DNA from: a virus | Length of the DNA: 24,685 nt | Reading direction: 5' to 3' (one strand) | IMG/VR virus record: IMGVR_UViG_3300042353_000078 | Span: 1 to 24,685 of that record | Part shown: positions 1-9,856 of the stretch, piece after piece | How the letters are laid out: every line of letters begins with the position of its first letter | Numbering within the stretch: the first letter of the stretch is position 1 | Position numbers and translations under genes: made by a program | The notes under the pieces: generated by a model | What the model was told of the DNA's origin: nothing | What the model saw: only the letters and a program-made list of their open reading frames with translations | Database searches by the model: none

Positions 1-705
1 CTTGCCTTCGCTAGGCAGCAGTACGCAGATATTAGTCCAATGCTTCGTGACATAGCGCAGCAACAGCAAGCCGCGCAGAACCAGCAAATGCAGCAGGCAC
101 AGGACTACTACGACTACCAAACACAAACATACAGACCCGTAGAACGTGGACTAGTGCAACAAGCCCAACAGTTCGATACGGCAGATTATCGTAATCAATT
201 AGCGGCGCAAGCCGCCGCCGATGCTGGTCGCGCATTTGGCCAAACTCAGGCCGCAACACAGCGAGCCATGGGTTCTATGGGTGTTAATCCTAACTCTGGT
301 CGCTTTGCTGGACTTACAAACCAAAACGCTGTTGCACTAGCTGCACAACGCGCTGGTGCTATGACCGGAACTAGACAGCAAGCCGAACAGATGGGTTGGG
401 CTAGAAAGATGGACGTTACTGGTCTTGGCCGTAATTTGCCCGGCGCTTCTACAGCGGCGTATCAAGGCGCTACTGGTGCAGGCAGTGCTGCTGGTACTAC
501 AGCTATGGGTGCTGGTAATCAATATATGGCAGGTATGGGTCAGGCAGGACAAACCATCGGAGCTGGTCTCAACACCCAAATGCAGGGCCTTACAAATATT
601 CTCGGCGTACAAGGCAGCGTATACAACCAAGCGCAGAACGCCCAAGGTGAGATGTTCGGCTCTTTGCTTGGCGCTGGTGGGTCGCTTGGTGCAGCGTTTG
701 TATGA
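1..705 (+). CDS. Gln/Gly-rich internal virion or head-tail protein, 5' partial
   Basis: The reading frame is open from base 1 and encodes 13 residues before the first ATG at 40, so the gene almost certainly starts upstream of the window. The visible 234 residues begin with a Gln-rich, probably helical stretch (QQQQ, QQMQQAQ), followed by an Ala/Gln region with MGSMGVNPNSGRF and the segment GWARKMDVTGLGRNLP, then a Gly/Ala/Gln-rich low-complexity tail. I recall this layout from small structural proteins encoded just before the large internal proteins of podovirus-like phages; that is family memory, not a search result. It ends in an ATGA overlap with the PP-loop enzyme gene. No catalytic motif is visible. 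The exact virion role (internal protein, head-tail connection or ejected protein) cannot be decided from sequence. Confidence 0.8.
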   Translation, partial: LAFARQQYADISPMLRDIAQQQQAAQNQQMQQAQDYYDYQTQTYRPVERGLVQQAQQFDTADYRNQLAAQAAADAGRAFGQTQAATQRAMGSMGVNPNSGRFAGLTNQNAVALAAQRAGAMTGTRQQAEQMGWARKMDVTGLGRNLPGASTAAYQGATGAGSAAGTTAMGAGNQYMAGMGQAGQTIGAGLNTQMQGLTNILGVQGSVYNQAQNAQGEMFGSLLGAGGSLGAAFV

Positions 706-1428: not shown

Positions 1429-3456
1429 ATGGGCTGGGCATCTGGGTTTCAAGCTGGTACAGCAATGGGTAAAAGTTGGATTGATACTTACCGCGAGGCT
1501 GAACAACGTAAGAAAATTGAAGAAATTCAAAAGGCTCCTGTTAGCGAGACTAAAGGGTTAACTGCGCCTGATGCTGCACAGTTAGAAGCTATTCGTAATG
1601 CTAAAACACCAGAAGGTCTTCCCTACTACAACGTAGAAGAATTTACTGGCAGAGGTGTTGGCCCTAGTTCCTATGATGTAACGCCTAATAGTGGTGTTGG
1701 TGGTGGTTTTGTAACGCAATATCCTGAACAAGCTACTGTTGCTGGCCTAGCTCCTACTCCACGTTACGCTCCCGGTGAATTGGAAAAACTAGACGAACAG
1801 TTTAAAACACCTGTAGCGTTTGCGCCGCAAGTAACTGGCACTCAGTATTTAGGTAAAGAATACAGCGCTACCGGACCTTCCGAACAACAGAAACAACTTG
1901 CGCAGATGAACGCGTATGCCGATGTTGTTGCTAAAACTAATCCGTTAGAAGCACAACGTATGCGGTTGGCCGCTACACAAGAAGCTCGTTCACAGACGCA
2001 ATTTGAAGGCGCACAGCAGTTACAAGGTCTGCAGATTAGTAGAGAAAAACGTGCGGAAGGTAAAGAAGCTGGATTAGACGCCGCGCTTGAGTCTATTAAT
2101 AGCGATGTAACCATGCCAATGGACCAGCGCCAGAAAGCTATTGTTACAGCTATTGCTCAGTACAAAGGTCCTGAAGCTGCACTAGAATTTACGAACAAGG
2201 GTACTTCTGCGAAACTCAACGAAGCATCGCTAGCTTCTGTTACACGTACATTAGAAGAAGGTAAGCTAGTAGACAGATTCAACGCTGAAGTAGTTAAGCA
2301 ACGTGCAGCTAATCCTGATTTCGGTGCAAAAGACATGCAGAAATTGGCTACGGATTTGGGATTGCCACTCGGTCTCCAAGATTCATATGTAGCTGCTATG
2401 GCTAACATTAGCAAGAATAGCATTACGCTGCTTCGCCAAGAAGTTGAGTCTAAGTTTAGTACGCTAAAAAATTATAAAGAAGCGATAAGAGAGTTCAATA
2501 CTAACGATAAACTAGACCCGGATACCGACTTGCGAGAACGAGCTGGTCCTAACGGTAGCATTATCGTTGACCTCGTAGACAAAAAAGGTAATGTGCTACA
2601 GAAGGATATGTATAGCTTCCGCAACGCTGCCGAGGCTTTTTCTGGACTATACCAAGCCGCTACTAATCCTGCTCAGATGGGTGATTGGGCGCTTAAGAAC
2701 GAACTTACTCGCGCAGAGATTGAGGAAAAGAGAGGTAGAGCTGAATACCTTAAAGGTGGCGGTGCTCGTCGCCCCGGTGGATTAAGCAGTGGTGGTGGCG
2801 ACGCAGCTTCCGTTAAAAAGGCAGATACGCTTACACGTATGGCTTCTACATATGAAAAAAGTATCATTAACATCGATAAGCAATTAGCTGAACTACGTGG
2901 AAATAGTCCTGAAATAGTAAAGCAACGGGACGCGTTAACGGTCAAGCGCAATGATCTTAGCGATAAACAAATGAAAGCCATGGATAATGCGGAAGCACTT
3001 CTTAGTGGCGAAGGTGGTGGCTTACAGCGTGGTGGTGGTGGTGGTGGTGGTGGTGATGTTCTGCCACCGCTAAAAAAGGGCGAATCTCGTATTCTAGAAG
3101 ATAGAGGCGAGAAAGTTACGTTTAACGGTGGTGATACCACAGACCCTAAAAACTACACGATAACGAAAATTAATGCTGCTCCTGCCGCTGCTCCTGCCGC
3201 TGCTCCTGCCGCTGCTCCTGTCGCTAAATCAGAAATTCAAATTAAAGCAGAAAGGGAAACGCAGGAACTAAATAGTCTTAATGGTAAAAGAACTAAACTC
3301 TCCCCTGATGTTGTTGAATATTACAAGTCGATAGAGAAAACAGCTGAAGCAAAACGGAAAGCGAAACAGCAAGCAGATGAAGCGGAAAGTACCGCATACA
3401 AGGCAAGGGAACGTGAGAAAGCCCTTAAAGCTGCTAAAGCACTGAACCAAAAATAA
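1429..3456 (+). CDS. 675-aa coiled-coil/low-complexity virion protein
   Basis: The start ATG is preceded by an AGGAG ribosome-binding site (taggag, 1417-1422). The protein starts MGWASGFQAG, a beginning I recall from podovirus virion proteins encoded just upstream of the large ejection protein. No enzyme motif is visible. Residues about 460-525 are charged heptad-like helix, flanked by Gly-rich linkers (including eight consecutive Gly at about 535-542). A PAAA/PAAP repeat occupies about 585-599, and a Lys/Glu/Ala-rich helix (about 625-675) ends the protein. Alternation of helices with flexible linkers fits an internal capsid or tail-associated protein. The next gene begins 8 nt after its stop, so the two are surely co-transcribed. 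The virion role is inferred from position and composition. Confidence 0.8.
   Translation: MGWASGFQAGTAMGKSWIDTYREAEQRKKIEEIQKAPVSETKGLTAPDAAQLEAIRNAKTPEGLPYYNVEEFTGRGVGPSSYDVTPNSGVGGGFVTQYPEQATVAGLAPTPRYAPGELEKLDEQFKTPVAFAPQVTGTQYLGKEYSATGPSEQQKQLAQMNAYADVVAKTNPLEAQRMRLAATQEARSQTQFEGAQQLQGLQISREKRAEGKEAGLDAALESINSDVTMPMDQRQKAIVTAIAQYKGPEAALEFTNKGTSAKLNEASLASVTRTLEEGKLVDRFNAEVVKQRAANPDFGAKDMQKLATDLGLPLGLQDSYVAAMANISKNSITLLRQEVESKFSTLKNYKEAIREFNTNDKLDPDTDLRERAGPNGSIIVDLVDKKGNVLQKDMYSFRNAAEAFSGLYQAATNPAQMGDWALKNELTRAEIEEKRGRAEYLKGGGARRPGGLSSGGGDAASVKKADTLTRMASTYEKSIINIDKQLAELRGNSPEIVKQRDALTVKRNDLSDKQMKAMDNAEALLSGEGGGLQRGGGGGGGGDVLPPLKKGESRILEDRGEKVTFNGGDTTDPKNYTITKINAAPAAAPAAAPAAAPVAKSEIQIKAERETQELNSLNGKRTKLSPDVVEYYKSIEKTAEAKRKAKQQADEAESTAYKAREREKALKAAKALNQK
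3031..3054 (+). repeat. (GGT)8 trinucleotide microsatellite
   Basis: Eight perfect GGT units in frame encode an eight-glycine linker in the 675-aa virion protein. A tract like this can change length by slippage without breaking the frame. Confidence 0.95.
3181..3225 (+). repeat. 12-bp in-frame tandem repeat (Pro-Ala-Ala-Ala)
   Basis: Three perfect copies of CCTGCCGCTGCT (3181-3216) are followed by a partial degenerate copy (cctgtcgct). They encode a proline-alanine linker between the middle of the 675-aa virion protein and its C-terminal helix. Confidence 0.93.
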
Positions 3457-3464
3457 GGTAAGCC

Positions 3465-6400
3465 ATGCCGACACTATCGCGCTATCCATGGGAAACCGCC
3501 GTTGCTGATGAAGAACTACGCACTTTGCGTATCGATCCAGAAGTTCAGAAGCAGCGGGATAGAGAAGCTGCCCGTATTCGGTCTGCTGAGACGGATAATC
3601 CTGAGCTTGCTGGTATCGAGGACCGAGTTGCGGAAGTCGGTGGGCAAAAGCGGAAAAAGTTTGACCGTGTAGATAACCCACTGCGTGCGCCAGAGCAGAC
3701 GCGCACGTTGTCTAAGTACCCATGGGAAGAATCGCCTAAGCCAAAAAGTAAATATAGCAAATACCACCTTCCGTTATCTACAGAAATCCCTAAAGAGCGG
3801 GGTTTCTTTGACGAGTTAGGCACCCAGTTGGCTGGTGGTGCGATGGTCGATCTGCCTGAGATGGCTGGTCAGGGATTAAAATTCTTAGAGCGTGAAACCG
3901 GACTTGCGACTGGTGATCTTGGTAGACGTATGGTTGCGGGTGCTAGAGAACGTGCTCCACAATATGAACGCTCTGGCCAAGAGCGTGGACTTGCTGCCGA
4001 TATTCTTCTGTCTGGTTCTCGTGCTGTTGCGCCAGTATTAGCTGCGGCCCCGCTTGCGCTTGTACCCGGTGTTGGTACTTCGGCAGCTGCCGTTGCTGCT
4101 GGTACCTTATTTGGTACCTCTTCGGCGCAAGAAACCTACGATAAACTTATCGCGCAGGGTGTATCTCCTGAAGAAGCAACCGCTGCTTCACGTCGTGTAG
4201 GTTTGATTCAAGGTGTTGGTGAAACCGTTGCGACTGCTGTCGGTGCGAAGGCGTTTAAGCCGCTGCTAAAAGGAAAAACCACTACTGGCCTTGCTGCTGA
4301 GTTAACTGATACGGGTATCCTAAAGCCATTTGCTAAGGGTATGGCTGTCAACATGCTAGTGCAGCCTACTACTGAAGTAGCGCAAGATGTTGGAGCCTCG
4401 TTGGTCGAGCGTGCATACGGTGGCAAAGAAGAAAACCTATACGATATCGCTGGACAGTCGTTCAAAGGTGGTCTTGGCCTGACGCTGTTGCTTGGTCCGC
4501 TATCTATCGGTAGTCATGTATCTCGTTCAAACAATGCGGCTACGTTGAAGGCTGCACTATCCGACGACCTGAGCATACCTCCTGAAGTTAAGCAGCAAGC
4601 CATAGCCACCGTGCAAGCCGCCGCGCAGCAGAAAGGTATCAAAGACGAAGATATCGCTGGTTGGGTTACGAAGCAGATCGAATTAGAAGATCGTCGCAGT
4701 GATGCACTTCGTCGCATTGAAGACGCTATTGCTTACGATGTAGAGATCGGTGACCCTAAGACACTAGAAGAATACGACAAGGCATTTAACTCGCCAAGCG
4801 GTGAGAAAATTACCGAAGTAGGTGACGATGGTAAGAAGAAAACTCGTGAACTTACTATTGGTGAATTGATCCAAGAGCAGGCTAAGCGTAACATTCTTGG
4901 TGAACTGGTAGAAGAACCCACAAACCTGCTGACTCCTAGCGTGATGAACGCACAAGAGTATCTGGAGAAGATGCGCCGTGAGAATATCCTCGGCAGCACT
5001 GACCCACTTACGCAGGTAGAAACAGGTAAGCAAGTTGCGCCGGGTGTAACGCAAACTGCATCGGGTACTTATGTAACGGCTCCAGAAGATCAAGCCCAGC
5101 AAGGCCTCGGTCGGCAGATGCCACAGACAGCTTATGGTGTGCCGGGTGTTACTACGACTGGCGGCGGTGTTTATCAGGTCAACCCCGATCAATTGCAAGG
5201 TCCTGCTGCACAAGTGCAGACTGGCCAGCGCGTAGCAGAACCACAAGTCATGGGTGGCCTTACCCGCCCTGTCGCAACTGTTCCTTCCTCCAGCGGTCCT
5301 GCCGCTGTTTCCCCGAGCGTGATTACCCCGCCGGGGTCTTTTACAACGCCTGTCACCGTTGCTCCTGCTGCTAAACCTGCTGCTAAACCTGCTGCTAAAC
5401 CTAAAGTTGCTAAGGTAGTTGTTCCTGTCGTAGCTGAATTAGAAGACGAAGAAGTTGCACGTACCCCTGAAGAACAGAAAGCTGACGATGAAGCCACGGC
5501 TAAGCTAATCGATGAAGTCGGCCTGACTGATTTCGCTGGCAAGAACCCATTGCAAGCCGTCGTGCAAGGTGAAAAGTCTATCCCAGTACCGGGTCGTCCA
5601 TCAATAGCACTTAAAGCACTGCAAGGTATCCGTGATGCACTGCTTCGCAAATCAGGCAAAGTGTCCAAGGAGTTTGGCAAGAAAGAACAGCGCATCACTA
5701 CAGCGTTACAGAACTTCTCTACTGCCTACGACCAGTATTTGAACAAGGGTGGGAACCTCGTCGTTGAGAAGACTGATCGTGCCGCCGCTGCAAAACTTCC
5801 AGAAGGTACGACACCCGCCGCTGCAGTAAAAGCTACGGAAGAACGAGCAGCAACTCGTATTGCTGGATTGGATAAGTACGCTACCGCTGCACGTGATGCT
5901 TTGGCGGAGCTTGGCGCTGCTGTAGGCAATAGCCCGAAAGATGTTGAAGTACTTGTGCGATTGCTTAAAGACACAGTGCAGCAGAAGTTGGCCAAGCCGG
6001 GCAAGACTAAAGCAGAGACGCTGAAGAAGCTAAAGAAACTAGACACGACTATCTCGTCTGGTTGGGCTGCTGCGAAGCAGGACTTGTTCCGTGCTGAAGG
6101 GACTGATCTTGCCAATGTGCGTGGTGGCGAAGTTCGGTTGGCTACAGAGCAGCAAGAGAAAGCAGGTGCTATCTCCCCTATCGAGAAGGCAGCTATAGAA
6201 GGTTTCTCTAATCCTACTGGTAAGGGCGAGACTACTTACACTGGCATCGCTGGCGTTTTGCAGTACCTACGATTCTCAGGTACGCCGTTTGAGCGCAACC
6301 TAGCACGTCTGATTCGTGACTCTATCGAGGGTTCTACTAACGCTCCTAAAGTTGAGTTCATCACAACAGGTAAGCCTAGGTTCGATCCTAAAACAAACAC

Positions 6401-9400
6401 GGTTTACTTGCGTAAGAACGAATCACCTGAAGTTATCTTGCACGAGTCTTTGCACGCGGCACTGCAGTGGTACGTTCACTCAAACCCTAACGATCCAGTA
6501 GTCAAGCAACTGAAGAAGTCATTGAATACCGTCGTTGGTTATAAAGGCACGTTGACTGGCAAGGCTGCAGAAGTTCAGACTATTCTTAAAGACCTCGTTG
6601 CTGGTAAGAACGAACTAGACGCGGTGCTGGAACTTATCTCCTACGGTACTACGCTCAACGAGTTCCGCAAGGCGCTCCAAGCTATGCCTACAAAAGGTGT
6701 GCCTAAGACGTTCTACGAAGCGGCTAATTCGATCTGGCGCATGACGATGGCTATCGTTCGTAAACTGCTCGGCGTAAACAACTCCGTTGCATCAGACGTT
6801 CTTGCATCGTCCCTCAAGTTACTAGAGCAGGCATCTAGACAGGCACCACCTGCAGTACGTACTGGCAATATTCTTGAAGCTGCGGTTACGTCGAACAAGG
6901 CTATGTCGCAAGCTGCTGGTATTCCAGCACAGGACTTTTCTCAGTTCGGTAAACGCATTGCGCCTGCTGCGTTGAGTACTAGATTCTTCTTTGAGATGGT
7001 TGGCTACGATAAGCTGGCTAAGAAGATAACTGAAAATTCTAGCAAGATAGCTGCAAACATTCGTAAGAATTTCCCAGCTACCGAACGCACGATGATTTAT
7101 CTCAACTCAAGATTCAGCGCTGGAGAAGCAACGAGCCAAGAGATCGAGAACTTTAAAGTCAACAAAAGCGTCGGCTATCAGCAGATGGAGCGCCTTGCCA
7201 ATTTTGTAGTTAACCGACCCGGCAAAGATGTTCTGTCGCTGTTCAAGTATATGGATGGTGACAAGACTGCCCTTGATGGTGTTAAGAACAAAGAAATTCT
7301 CTTTCGTGCAGCGGACAATGTTCTTAACTGGTTCGATACCTATGTCAAGGATTTACCAGAAGCTGACCAGAAGTTCTTCAAGGGCCAGCCGTTCTCTAAG
7401 TCTTTGTTATTTGCCAGCAACCGAGATCAAGTAGCGTCGAACACATTTGGTATGCGTGGTCTTGGCAAAGTCATGGGGCTAAAGCACCAGTACCAAGATA
7501 CGCTAGACGGGTTTAAGGACTGGATTGCTAAGGATCAGAAAGGTGACTTGGACTTGGATGGGCGCTTCTACCAAGTATTTAAGAACGATCCAATAAAATC
7601 CAATACTCCGCAGCTCGAAGGTTACATGTCGATTAGCGAGTTCGAGAAATTAAACCGTAGGAATCCTACTGGGGTTGTCGTTGACTCGTCGCGTGAGTGG
7701 TGGTTGTCGCAGTATGAGAATGATAAGAAGTACAAGTTCACGTCGAGTATGACGGCTAAGCAAGCCATCGAAGAAAACAAAGCAGATGAACTGGCTAACG
7801 CTATGCGTAACACCATGGCTGCACTGGCTAATAACTATGCTAGCAAGAACTTCTCTACTGCTTTGTCTAAGATCGGCTACGACGCAGACGGTAAGCCCAC
7901 TGCTTTGTCAGTAGCGTTTGATAGCTTAGATGCCATCAACAAGACGTTTGATCGCAAAGTACGTGACGAAAGAGCAGTACTACAAGTTTCCTCCAACGAA
8001 GCCAGAACGCCACAGATCACGTCTATGTATCGCCGCACGGGTACATGGGTTAAGTTGTCTGACAACAAGGCTATCTACGGCGACTTAGCTGGCAAGTACG
8101 TATCTGGTCCTGTATGGAGCGCCATGACAGACATGTCTGACAGACAACCACTTATACCACTTCAAGCCGTTAACGATGGTATGCGCTGGTTTAAGAAGTC
8201 TAAGACTATCTACAACCCCGGCACACACATCACCAACGTAGCGTCTAATATCTCGCTTGCCATGATGCACGATATCCCGATGATGACATTGGGTAAGGCA
8301 GCTCGTATATTCTCTCTATACGAAGTAGCACCCAACAAACTTACTAAGTCTGAACTCGACATGATGTCGTCGTTTATGAACTCTGGTGCCATGTTGGGTG
8401 ACTTCTCAAGCTCTGAAGTTAAGCGTGCGTTGAACGAAGCATGGGCTAAGAACATGGCCATGGAAAACGATGTGTCTATGATGCAGCGTTTGGCTTCGTT
8501 CGTTAACTACGAGAAATCTAAGGCTCAGGCATTGGTACAGACCGCCGCTAAGTTTGGGAAAAAAGCAGATGAGATTGCCACAGAAGCCTACGCCGCTGAA
8601 GATAATATCTTCCGTCTTGCAGCGTTCTTAACGAAGGCTGCTGACCTACAACGTATGGATGGCACTAAGACAGCTTCGCCGGAGCAGTTGCGTGCTGCTG
8701 GTGACTTTGCGCGTAAAGCCTTCCTAGACTACGACATCGACTCCAAGGCTGTCCGCATATTACGGCAGTCAGTCATCCCGTTTGTCTCTTGGGGATACGC
8801 AGTAGCTCCTGTGCTTGGTCGTATTGCCCTGCATCAGCCTTGGAAGATTGCTAACATCCTGATGGCTTATTACCTGCTAGACGCTGGTATGGCGGCTATG
8901 GCTGGCGACGATGATGAAGAGACGCGCAAAGCTCTTCCAGAAAGTGTCCGTGAACGCATGTTCTTCGGTAGCTTCGGTCCTAATATGCACATCCGTATCC
9001 CGTTCATGGGCGACGAAGATAATCCTGTGTACTACAGACTAGGTGACTATGTACCGTTTGCATCGATGACTAAGGGATTGCCTAATGGCGCGTTTGGTCA
9101 GTCATGGATTCCTAGTATCGTTACTCCAAGCGGCCCAATGGTATCTGCCATTGCTGGATTCGTAGCCGGTGTTGACCCATACACAGGCAAGTCTCTGTAT
9201 AAGCCCACAGATACACAGTGGGATAAACTACTAAAAAGCGCAAAGTTCGGCTACGATATCGTATCGCCGCCAATGGTAAGCAGTAAAAACATAGAGAAAG
9301 CTACCGAGATTGCGTCGGGGGATAACCTGAGTATCACTGGTGTAGAACCTAGTAGTTCCGTGTTTGCTCGTATGCTTGGACTGAAGATTTATGACTACAA

Positions 9401-9602
9401 TGTACCTGAGTCGTTGGCTATTCAAGACAAGATAGAGAAGAGTATCGAGCGTGACTTCAAGGCTGCAATGAACAAGGCCAAGAAGGAAGAAGATATGCGT
9501 GGGTACCCTGACTATGAGGAACTTGACGAGACGCTCGACGACTTGCAGGAACGCATGGAAGAACGGGTTGCAAGACTTCGTGGTGAAGAGGAGGAAGAAT
9601 AA
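3465..9602 (+). CDS. 2045-aa large polyvalent internal (ejected) virion protein with HExxH metallopeptidase motif
   Basis: The product belongs by architecture to the large polyvalent proteins that podovirus-like phages pack in the capsid and eject with the DNA. From the N-terminus: a doubled TLS[RK]YPWE motif (residues 3-10 and 81-88); an Ala/Gly-rich amphipathic or membrane-active region (about 180-350); a Pro/Ala/Thr-rich linker with AAKP repeats (about 600-650); helical stretches; then HESLH at 993-997 within a VILHESLHAALQW context, with a plausible third zinc ligand E1056 in LDAVLELISYG, suggesting a zincin-type peptidase. The C-terminal third has IYNPGTHITNVASN (about 1583-1596) and a hydrophobic block around QSVIPFVSWGYAVAP (about 1768-1782), both typical of the conserved domain known as LPD38, and ends in a Glu-rich tail. 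Its stop overlaps the next start (TAATG). The protease activity is inferred from motif only. The start ATG has a short AAGGTAAGCC leader. Confidence 0.9.
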   Translation: MPTLSRYPWETAVADEELRTLRIDPEVQKQRDREAARIRSAETDNPELAGIEDRVAEVGGQKRKKFDRVDNPLRAPEQTRTLSKYPWEESPKPKSKYSKYHLPLSTEIPKERGFFDELGTQLAGGAMVDLPEMAGQGLKFLERETGLATGDLGRRMVAGARERAPQYERSGQERGLAADILLSGSRAVAPVLAAAPLALVPGVGTSAAAVAAGTLFGTSSAQETYDKLIAQGVSPEEATAASRRVGLIQGVGETVATAVGAKAFKPLLKGKTTTGLAAELTDTGILKPFAKGMAVNMLVQPTTEVAQDVGASLVERAYGGKEENLYDIAGQSFKGGLGLTLLLGPLSIGSHVSRSNNAATLKAALSDDLSIPPEVKQQAIATVQAAAQQKGIKDEDIAGWVTKQIELEDRRSDALRRIEDAIAYDVEIGDPKTLEEYDKAFNSPSGEKITEVGDDGKKKTRELTIGELIQEQAKRNILGELVEEPTNLLTPSVMNAQEYLEKMRRENILGSTDPLTQVETGKQVAPGVTQTASGTYVTAPEDQAQQGLGRQMPQTAYGVPGVTTTGGGVYQVNPDQLQGPAAQVQTGQRVAEPQVMGGLTRPVATVPSSSGPAAVSPSVITPPGSFTTPVTVAPAAKPAAKPAAKPKVAKVVVPVVAELEDEEVARTPEEQKADDEATAKLIDEVGLTDFAGKNPLQAVVQGEKSIPVPGRPSIALKALQGIRDALLRKSGKVSKEFGKKEQRITTALQNFSTAYDQYLNKGGNLVVEKTDRAAAAKLPEGTTPAAAVKATEERAATRIAGLDKYATAARDALAELGAAVGNSPKDVEVLVRLLKDTVQQKLAKPGKTKAETLKKLKKLDTTISSGWAAAKQDLFRAEGTDLANVRGGEVRLATEQQEKAGAISPIEKAAIEGFSNPTGKGETTYTGIAGVLQYLRFSGTPFERNLARLIRDSIEGSTNAPKVEFITTGKPRFDPKTNTVYLRKNESPEVILHESLHAALQWYVHSNPNDPVVKQLKKSLNTVVGYKGTLTGKAAEVQTILKDLVAGKNELDAVLELISYGTTLNEFRKALQAMPTKGVPKTFYEAANSIWRMTMAIVRKLLGVNNSVASDVLASSLKLLEQASRQAPPAVRTGNILEAAVTSNKAMSQAAGIPAQDFSQFGKRIAPAALSTRFFFEMVGYDKLAKKITENSSKIAANIRKNFPATERTMIYLNSRFSAGEATSQEIENFKVNKSVGYQQMERLANFVVNRPGKDVLSLFKYMDGDKTALDGVKNKEILFRAADNVLNWFDTYVKDLPEADQKFFKGQPFSKSLLFASNRDQVASNTFGMRGLGKVMGLKHQYQDTLDGFKDWIAKDQKGDLDLDGRFYQVFKNDPIKSNTPQLEGYMSISEFEKLNRRNPTGVVVDSSREWWLSQYENDKKYKFTSSMTAKQAIEENKADELANAMRNTMAALANNYASKNFSTALSKIGYDADGKPTALSVAFDSLDAINKTFDRKVRDERAVLQVSSNEARTPQITSMYRRTGTWVKLSDNKAIYGDLAGKYVSGPVWSAMTDMSDRQPLIPLQAVNDGMRWFKKSKTIYNPGTHITNVASNISLAMMHDIPMMTLGKAARIFSLYEVAPNKLTKSELDMMSSFMNSGAMLGDFSSSEVKRALNEAWAKNMAMENDVSMMQRLASFVNYEKSKAQALVQTAAKFGKKADEIATEAYAAEDNIFRLAAFLTKAADLQRMDGTKTASPEQLRAAGDFARKAFLDYDIDSKAVRILRQSVIPFVSWGYAVAPVLGRIALHQPWKIANILMAYYLLDAGMAAMAGDDDEETRKALPESVRERMFFGSFGPNMHIRIPFMGDEDNPVYYRLGDYVPFASMTKGLPNGAFGQSWIPSIVTPSGPMVSAIAGFVAGVDPYTGKSLYKPTDTQWDKLLKSAKFGYDIVSPPMVSSKNIEKATEIASGDNLSITGVEPSSSVFARMLGLKIYDYNVPESLAIQDKIEKSIERDFKAAMNKAKKEEDMRGYPDYEELDETLDDLQERMEERVARLRGEEEEE
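5367..5402 (+). repeat. 12-bp in-frame tandem repeat (Ala-Ala-Lys-Pro)x3
   Basis: Three perfect copies of GCTGCTAAACCT encode an AAKP linker within the large polyvalent protein, between the N-terminal region and the helical/peptidase part. Confidence 0.93.
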
Positions 9603-9856
9603 TGGCTAAGTCCCCAGCATGGCAGCGCAAGGAAGGCAAAGACCCCGAGGGGGGTCTTAACGCCAAGGGTCGTGCATCGTATAATAAAGCTAATCCCGGC
9701 AAGCCGGGGTTGAAGGCACCACAGCCGGAAGGTGGGCCTCGCAAAGATTCTTTTTGCGCCAGAATGGAAGGCATGAAGAAGAAAATGACCAGTGCTAAGA
9801 CAGCAAAGGACCCAGATTCTCGCATCAACAAAAGCCTTCGGGCATGGAAATGTTAA
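9602..9856 (+). CDS. 84-aa conserved basic phage protein
   Basis: It starts at the last base of the preceding stop (TAATG), so it is translationally coupled to the large polyvalent protein. The product begins MAKSPAWQRKEGK, has a Gly/Pro-rich middle (NPGKPGLKAPQPEGG) and ends SRINKSLRAWKC. I recall closely similar small proteins in many environmental phage genomes, always without a known function. It is strongly basic, with two Cys (one at the very C-terminus) and no membrane segment. Its position right after the ejection protein suggests a late, virion-related or DNA-binding role, but this is inference. Confidence 0.82.
   Translation: MAKSPAWQRKEGKDPEGGLNAKGRASYNKANPGKPGLKAPQPEGGPRKDSFCARMEGMKKKMTSAKTAKDPDSRINKSLRAWKC

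Follow-up and report, generated by a model that had tools for sequence, protein, structure and literature searches.

A predicted zincin-like metallopeptidase domain in a giant probable ejection protein of an uncultured virus

The giant gene and its HExxH site

The stretch of DNA analysed here (the window; 24,685 bases) is the whole of the uncultured-virus record IMGVR_UViG_3300042353_000078, and it contains a giant gene whose probable ejection, or polyvalent, protein of 2045 residues carries a predicted zincin-like metallopeptidase domain (Table 1). HESLH at residues 993-997 is the only HExxH in this protein, and both it and Glu1056 lie where a sequence-only reading of the window had placed them in the open reading frame 3465-9602. 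The span given in that reading, 6387-6641 (residues 975-1059), covers the site, and the whole domain proved larger, at about residues 915-1132. As set out below, this segment is likely to be a zincin-type (gluzincin-type) metallopeptidase domain, a judgement that covers its identity and not its substrate.

Table 1. Positions of the giant gene, its predicted metallopeptidase site and neighbouring virion genes in the window (aa, amino acids; vRNAP, virion RNA polymerase).
Feature	Position	Strand	Basis
Giant probable ejection/polyvalent protein, 2045 aa	3465..9602	+	Open reading frame; domain homologous to parts of the ejected N4 vRNAP and of internal virion proteins; relatives have virion genes upstream
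Zincin-like metallopeptidase domain, aa ~915-1132	6207..6860	+	AlphaFold2 model; 78-member alignment A2; PHROG 2206
H993-E994-S-L-H997, two predicted zinc ligands and predicted catalytic Glu	6441..6455	+	Sequence; 85/85 relatives; helix in model
E1056, predicted third zinc ligand, in helix	6630..6632	+	81 E, 2 D, 2 gaps of 85; helix 136-145 of model
Y1060 (Glu+4), aromatic of N4/phiKMV-type site, putative role	6642..6644	+	Residue counts in 92 complete sequences
Family-signature motif FDPKTNT, aa 973-979, in the hairpin joining strands 2 and 3	6381..6401	+	Alignment A2, per-column counts
C-terminal region after domain, ~893 aa	6921..9599	+	Matches no recognised family; unalignable by hhalign with C-termini of distant relatives
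675-aa gene immediately 5' of giant gene	1429..3456	+	Weakly similar to same-place gene of relative L011
Virion structural protein gene	40..705	+	PHROG 8003, E 2.8e-32; frame open at 5' end (contig start)

Conservation among relatives

Searches of viral contigs returned four loci with the whole protein and 27 with the domain, while a scan seeded only with FDPKTNT gave 134 relatives, the best 80 of which were kept. After a profile search and the removal of identical sequences, 85 distinct domains were available, including that of the window and five from named phages. HExxH was part of no search seed, although a slight bias towards it from the tblastn and profile steps is possible; it is kept in all 85 domains, no copy without it being seen among them. 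The column of Glu1056 holds 81 Glu, two Asp and two gaps where sequences are cut off, and in a wider set of 94 sequences it holds 90 Glu and two Asp among the 92 that are complete. In alignment A2 (78 sequences) the invariant columns are the P, T and T of FDPKTNT, whose conservation is partly biased because the motif served as a search seed, together with H993, E994 and H997, the only invariant columns outside that seed.

When the giant protein was shuffled as a whole at constant composition, nine of 5000 shuffles contained any HExxH. As a control, the HERLH at residue 559 of T7 gp16 was examined and found to be absent in five of five relatives checked. T7 gp16 was rejected as a family member (hhalign 0.4%, motif unconserved), and its HERLH, judged from these sequences, looks like a chance occurrence.

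Named phages were reached through the domain and its distant members. The whole giant protein gave no tblastn match to named phages at 1e-5, and a DNA search gave none either. The domain alone returned 135 named-phage records at E<=1, each of them weak (E about 0.01 to 1), and a distant member used as the query (L026) returned 14 records at E<=0.001. All 13 named-phage loci that were fetched (L033-L037, L119-L126) match the domain profile. A pattern scan of genome contigs yielded 72 pattern matches, none of which was confirmed as a relative. Hosts of phages with the domain span Cellulophaga, Rhizobium, Pseudomonas, Xanthomonas and enterics.

Two relatives are unusual in their organization. In L022 (2-1597, + strand), the sole member of alignment A1 with Asp for the third ligand, the open reading frame ends five residues past the domain, and the gene may be broken or split. 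A 2716-residue open reading frame of L097, starting at 1966, carries two copies of the domain (residues 946-1101 and 1558-1795), both with HExxH.

Predicted fold

A first AlphaFold2 model, built from 24 sequences over residues 891-1162, reached a predicted local distance difference test score (pLDDT) of 78. The second, from 78 sequences over residues 915-1132, reached a pLDDT of 87.1 and a predicted template modelling score of 0.82. Its secondary structure consists of two helices, then three strands, the HExxH helix, further helices and the helix with E1056. The core of the polyvalent-protein metallopeptidases, which are zincin-like, is described with this same order (Iyer et al., 2017; PMC5512222). 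The secondary structure anticipated from the sequence is likewise borne out by the second model, with a strand before the motif at residues 979-983 (model residues 65-69), the motif within a helix at 988-1006 (74-92) and E1056 in a later helix at 1050-1059 (136-145). Judged by the order of secondary-structure elements alone, the arrangement of the three predicted ligands is compatible with a zincin.

In a structural comparison by VIA-align, the metallopeptidase of lethal factor fills the top nine of 50 rows, with Z scores of 4.7-5.1. The best of these matches is weak (Z 5.1, root-mean-square deviation 4.9, 139 residues aligned), and PPEP-3, IrrE/PprI and selecase occupy lower rows. Because the Z values are weak, these matches support the zincin fold and do not prove it. 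When the first model was compared with predicted viral structures, large phage proteins were matched, including, at E of about 0.001 to 0.006, the vRNAP of a Roseobacter phage and the internal core protein of Ralstonia phage RSB3.

Links to known protein families

The window domain matches PHROG 2206, annotated 'virion RNA polymerase', with an E of 6.5e-11 at profile positions 2085-2248. The C1 region of N4 vRNAP matches the same profile at positions 2002-2248 (E 1.1e-80), overlapping the match of the window, and phiKMV gp37 also matches at overlapping positions. In the giant protein this match concerns the metallopeptidase segment only. Searches of the whole protein and of its pieces found no RNA polymerase module, and family scans of both found no second named domain besides the metallopeptidase. 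The whole protein gave no match in a PHROG scan, yet the domain alone matches at 2e-11; we attribute the difference to filtering, the sequence being long and biased, and see no contradiction in it. N4 itself was missed by a plain profile search and was linked through PHROG 2206 and through hhalign, in which the family and N4 C1 were paired at 94.7%. The HExxH of N4 starts at residue 2228, within C1 (2124-2375), and is mentioned in the N4 structure paper (PMC12633501).

Similarly, a sequence search of the PDB returned 9sfn (E 5.9e-10), 8vb2 (E 1.9e-4) and, weakly, gp10 of 23sg (E 0.011), with HExxH and Glu kept in the printed alignments of all three. The internal virion protein in 9sfn has a 15-residue stretch and a length identical to those of LUZ19 gp37, and 8vb2 is PhiM1 gp48. 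The domain has been placed in a zincin-like metallopeptidase superfamily of 'polyvalent' phage proteins, N4 vRNAP included (Iyer et al., 2017; PMC5512222). The setting in the window, a domain embedded in a large phage protein with virion genes upstream, fits the polyvalent type. The zincin assignment first made from the letters of the window has held up through conservation, predicted fold and this homology.

Domain position and gene neighbourhood

In 82 of the 84 domain rows that are complete at the 3' end, the window included, the domain is followed by 700 to 1300 residues. Between the close and distant groups, flanks and C-terminal halves could not be aligned, save for a weak N-terminal match (hhalign 49.6%). 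In the three distant relatives tested, LPD39 follows the domain (two at or above the cut-off and one below it), and these proteins match a DarB-like antirestriction family. The retention of the domain while its flanks differ points to a module, either mobile or ancient, carried by large proteins that otherwise differ.

Genes upstream of the giant gene in the relatives encode an internal virion protein, a tail fibre and a lytic transglycosylase-like protein. The 675-residue product immediately upstream in the window gave no family match at a useful E; it resembles the L011 protein from the same place (27% over 131 residues, E 1e-8) and is possibly a second ejection protein. Relative L015 has, ahead of its giant gene, a gene (3343-5217, + strand) with a region resembling lytic transglycosylases; family scans found no such match in the 675-residue gene at the corresponding place in the window. 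The virion structural gene at the contig start may be longer than annotated, as its frame leaves the contig there.

Two further genes were noted. A PAPS-reductase-like gene (702-1418, + strand; PF01507, E 2e-11) lies within the virion gene module, and directly 3' of the giant gene an 84-residue DUF6321 protein is encoded (9602-9856, + strand), with at most 79% identity to cyanophage and pelagiphage proteins. Judged by the DNA polymerase, Rhizobium RHph_TM27A-like phages are the closest named ones; for the internal virion protein gene of L011, the closest are phiARM81mr, BcepMigl and douglas 12A4. All of these have genomes of about 58-63 kb.

Two putative active-site types

Residues around the third ligand were compared in 94 sequences, namely the 85 domains, eight more named-phage pieces and N4, of which 92 are complete past the second motif. 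A Tyr seven residues before the Glu (Glu-7) is combined with a Glu four residues after it (Glu+4) in 63 of the 92. Another 25 are without the Tyr and have Tyr or Trp at Glu+4, four are without the Tyr and keep Glu at Glu+4, and none has aromatics at both positions. The type with an aromatic at Glu+4 includes the window (Y1060), N4, phiKMV/LUZ19 and Pradovirus. In the first type, the Tyr is spaced from the Glu as Tyr728 is from Glu735 of lethal factor, a tentative parallel. The split follows clades, and relatedness alone could therefore produce it; any functional meaning of the two types is hypothetical. As read from aligned residues, they are a small new detail on the putative active site.

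Proposed mode of action and alternatives

A zinc ion would be bound by H993 and H997, both in one helix, together with E1056 from a later one; E994 would serve to activate water. An active peptidase cutting host or virion proteins, as the sequence-only reading had suggested, is plausible. The name 'ejection protein' used there is supported by the neighbouring virion genes and by homologues, namely N4 vRNAP, which is ejected, and the internal virion proteins of phiKMV/LUZ19 and PhiM1; for the phage of the window itself, delivery of the protein with the DNA is something we infer from these homologues and genes. The domain lies mid-protein, just ahead of a C-terminal region of about 900 residues, the same place as in N4 vRNAP, phiKMV-type gp37 and others. 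The peptidase would stay latent within the virion and start to work once ejected, cleaving in cis or between copies inside the ejected protein complex, so that N- and C-terminal parts would be freed or rearranged. Within the zincin reading, we tentatively regard such post-ejection cleavage as the most likely mode of action, at somewhat short of an even chance.

The timing proposed here draws on N4. Its vRNAP is packaged unprocessed (Iyer et al., 2017; PMC5512222), and for the recombinant full-length protein 'no evidence of degradation' was reported (PMC12633501). Processing before packaging is therefore unlikely in N4, which favours action after packaging. As to the substrate, the domain is conserved in phages whose hosts are unrelated, which would favour a phage-borne one, the ejected proteins, over a host protein.

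Several results weigh against the reading given here. The undegraded N4 vRNAP argues against easy self-cleavage, and the window is without the Glu-7 Tyr that most relatives carry. The window domain reaches the cut-off of no Pfam or NCBIfam model; Tox-MPTase4 (PF15640) scores 18.8 bits against a curated cut-off of 25. Foldseek found no match in the PDB at E <= 0.001, and a Z of about 5 falls within the range of chance arrangements. In the open-licence literature, no report of peptidase activity was found for a phage domain of this kind.

After cleavage within the ejected complex, the next most likely option is that an active zincin attacks a host protein, perhaps one of the defences or the envelope, shortly after entering the cell; on balance we think this rather unlikely. 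It was listed as an option by Iyer and colleagues, who point to toxin-like metallopeptidases (Iyer et al., 2017; PMC5512222), and the closest Pfam model, Tox-MPTase4, is indeed a toxin metallopeptidase, matched by 44 of the 78 members at E<=0.1 with the window below the curated cut-off. However, the phages that retain the domain infect very different hosts, which speaks for a phage-borne or universal substrate. A zincin-like fold that perhaps binds zinc and serves as a structural or packing module, cutting no proteins in the virus life cycle, is improbable, although it would agree with the constant mid-protein position in large ejection proteins, with an N4 vRNAP that remains intact (PMC5512222; PMC12633501) and with the requirement of the N4 region containing the domain for encapsidation (Iyer et al., 2017; PMC5512222). 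E994 would not be needed to hold zinc, yet it is invariant in 85 of 85 domains, which makes a non-catalytic role less likely, and the copies without HExxH that such a role would lead one to expect were not seen. Finally, chance HExxH motifs do occur, as in T7 gp16, but a chance origin of the HExxH and downstream Glu in the window is rejected as having next to no probability, given the conservation, the shuffles and the T7 control.

Significance

The domain had already been described in 2017, together with its superfamily and possible roles (Iyer et al., PMC5512222); that of the window is a new example, from an uncultured group, of a domain known from N4 vRNAP and its relatives. The new family supplies 78 aligned divergent sequences, a confident model and a compact 218-residue construct for expression. 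Further, since 9sfn, 8vb2 and, weakly, 23sg contain the motif, a metal at the site could be sought in existing maps.

A broader proposal, which we consider a long shot, is that one latent zinc peptidase is the sole sequence-detectable module common to the otherwise unrelated large ejection proteins of short-tailed phages (N4-like, phiKMV-like, Pradovirus, PhiM1, crAss-like and the window group). It would carry out a common post-delivery step, perhaps to open or dismantle the ejection channel, with its catalytic aromatic moved from Glu-7 to Glu+4 between the two site types.

Comparison with known systems

The best fold matches to the window domain, over about 139 residues, are to the catalytic domain of anthrax lethal factor (family M34). 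The similarity is weak and there is no sequence match at a curated cut-off, so lethal factor is to be seen as a fold relative and not as a sign of family membership.

PhiM1 gp48, a tetrameric ejection protein of a Pectobacterium phage (8vb2), is closer: like the window protein, it has the HExxH and Glu in alignment, and it is an ejectosome protein. Unlike the window protein, it has the Tyr at Glu-7, a site type judged by eye in the alignment. The main text of its structure paper does not contain the words protease, zincin or HExxH. With gp37 of phiKMV/LUZ19 (9sfn chain G), the window protein shares the homologous domain (E 5.9e-10) and an aromatic residue and Gly after the Glu, whereas gp37 is shorter (1337 residues) and its flanks cannot be aligned with those of the window group.

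N4 vRNAP differs from the window protein in having a T7-type RNA polymerase module, which no search of the latter detected, and in the one Schitoviridae vRNAP tested, that of phiA41, the flanks could not be aligned with those of the window protein. In the domain itself, the two agree in the PHROG 2206 segment, in HExxH and in a Glu followed four residues on by Tyr or Trp and Gly, and in both the domain stands immediately ahead of a large C-terminal region, as C1 stands before C2 in N4.

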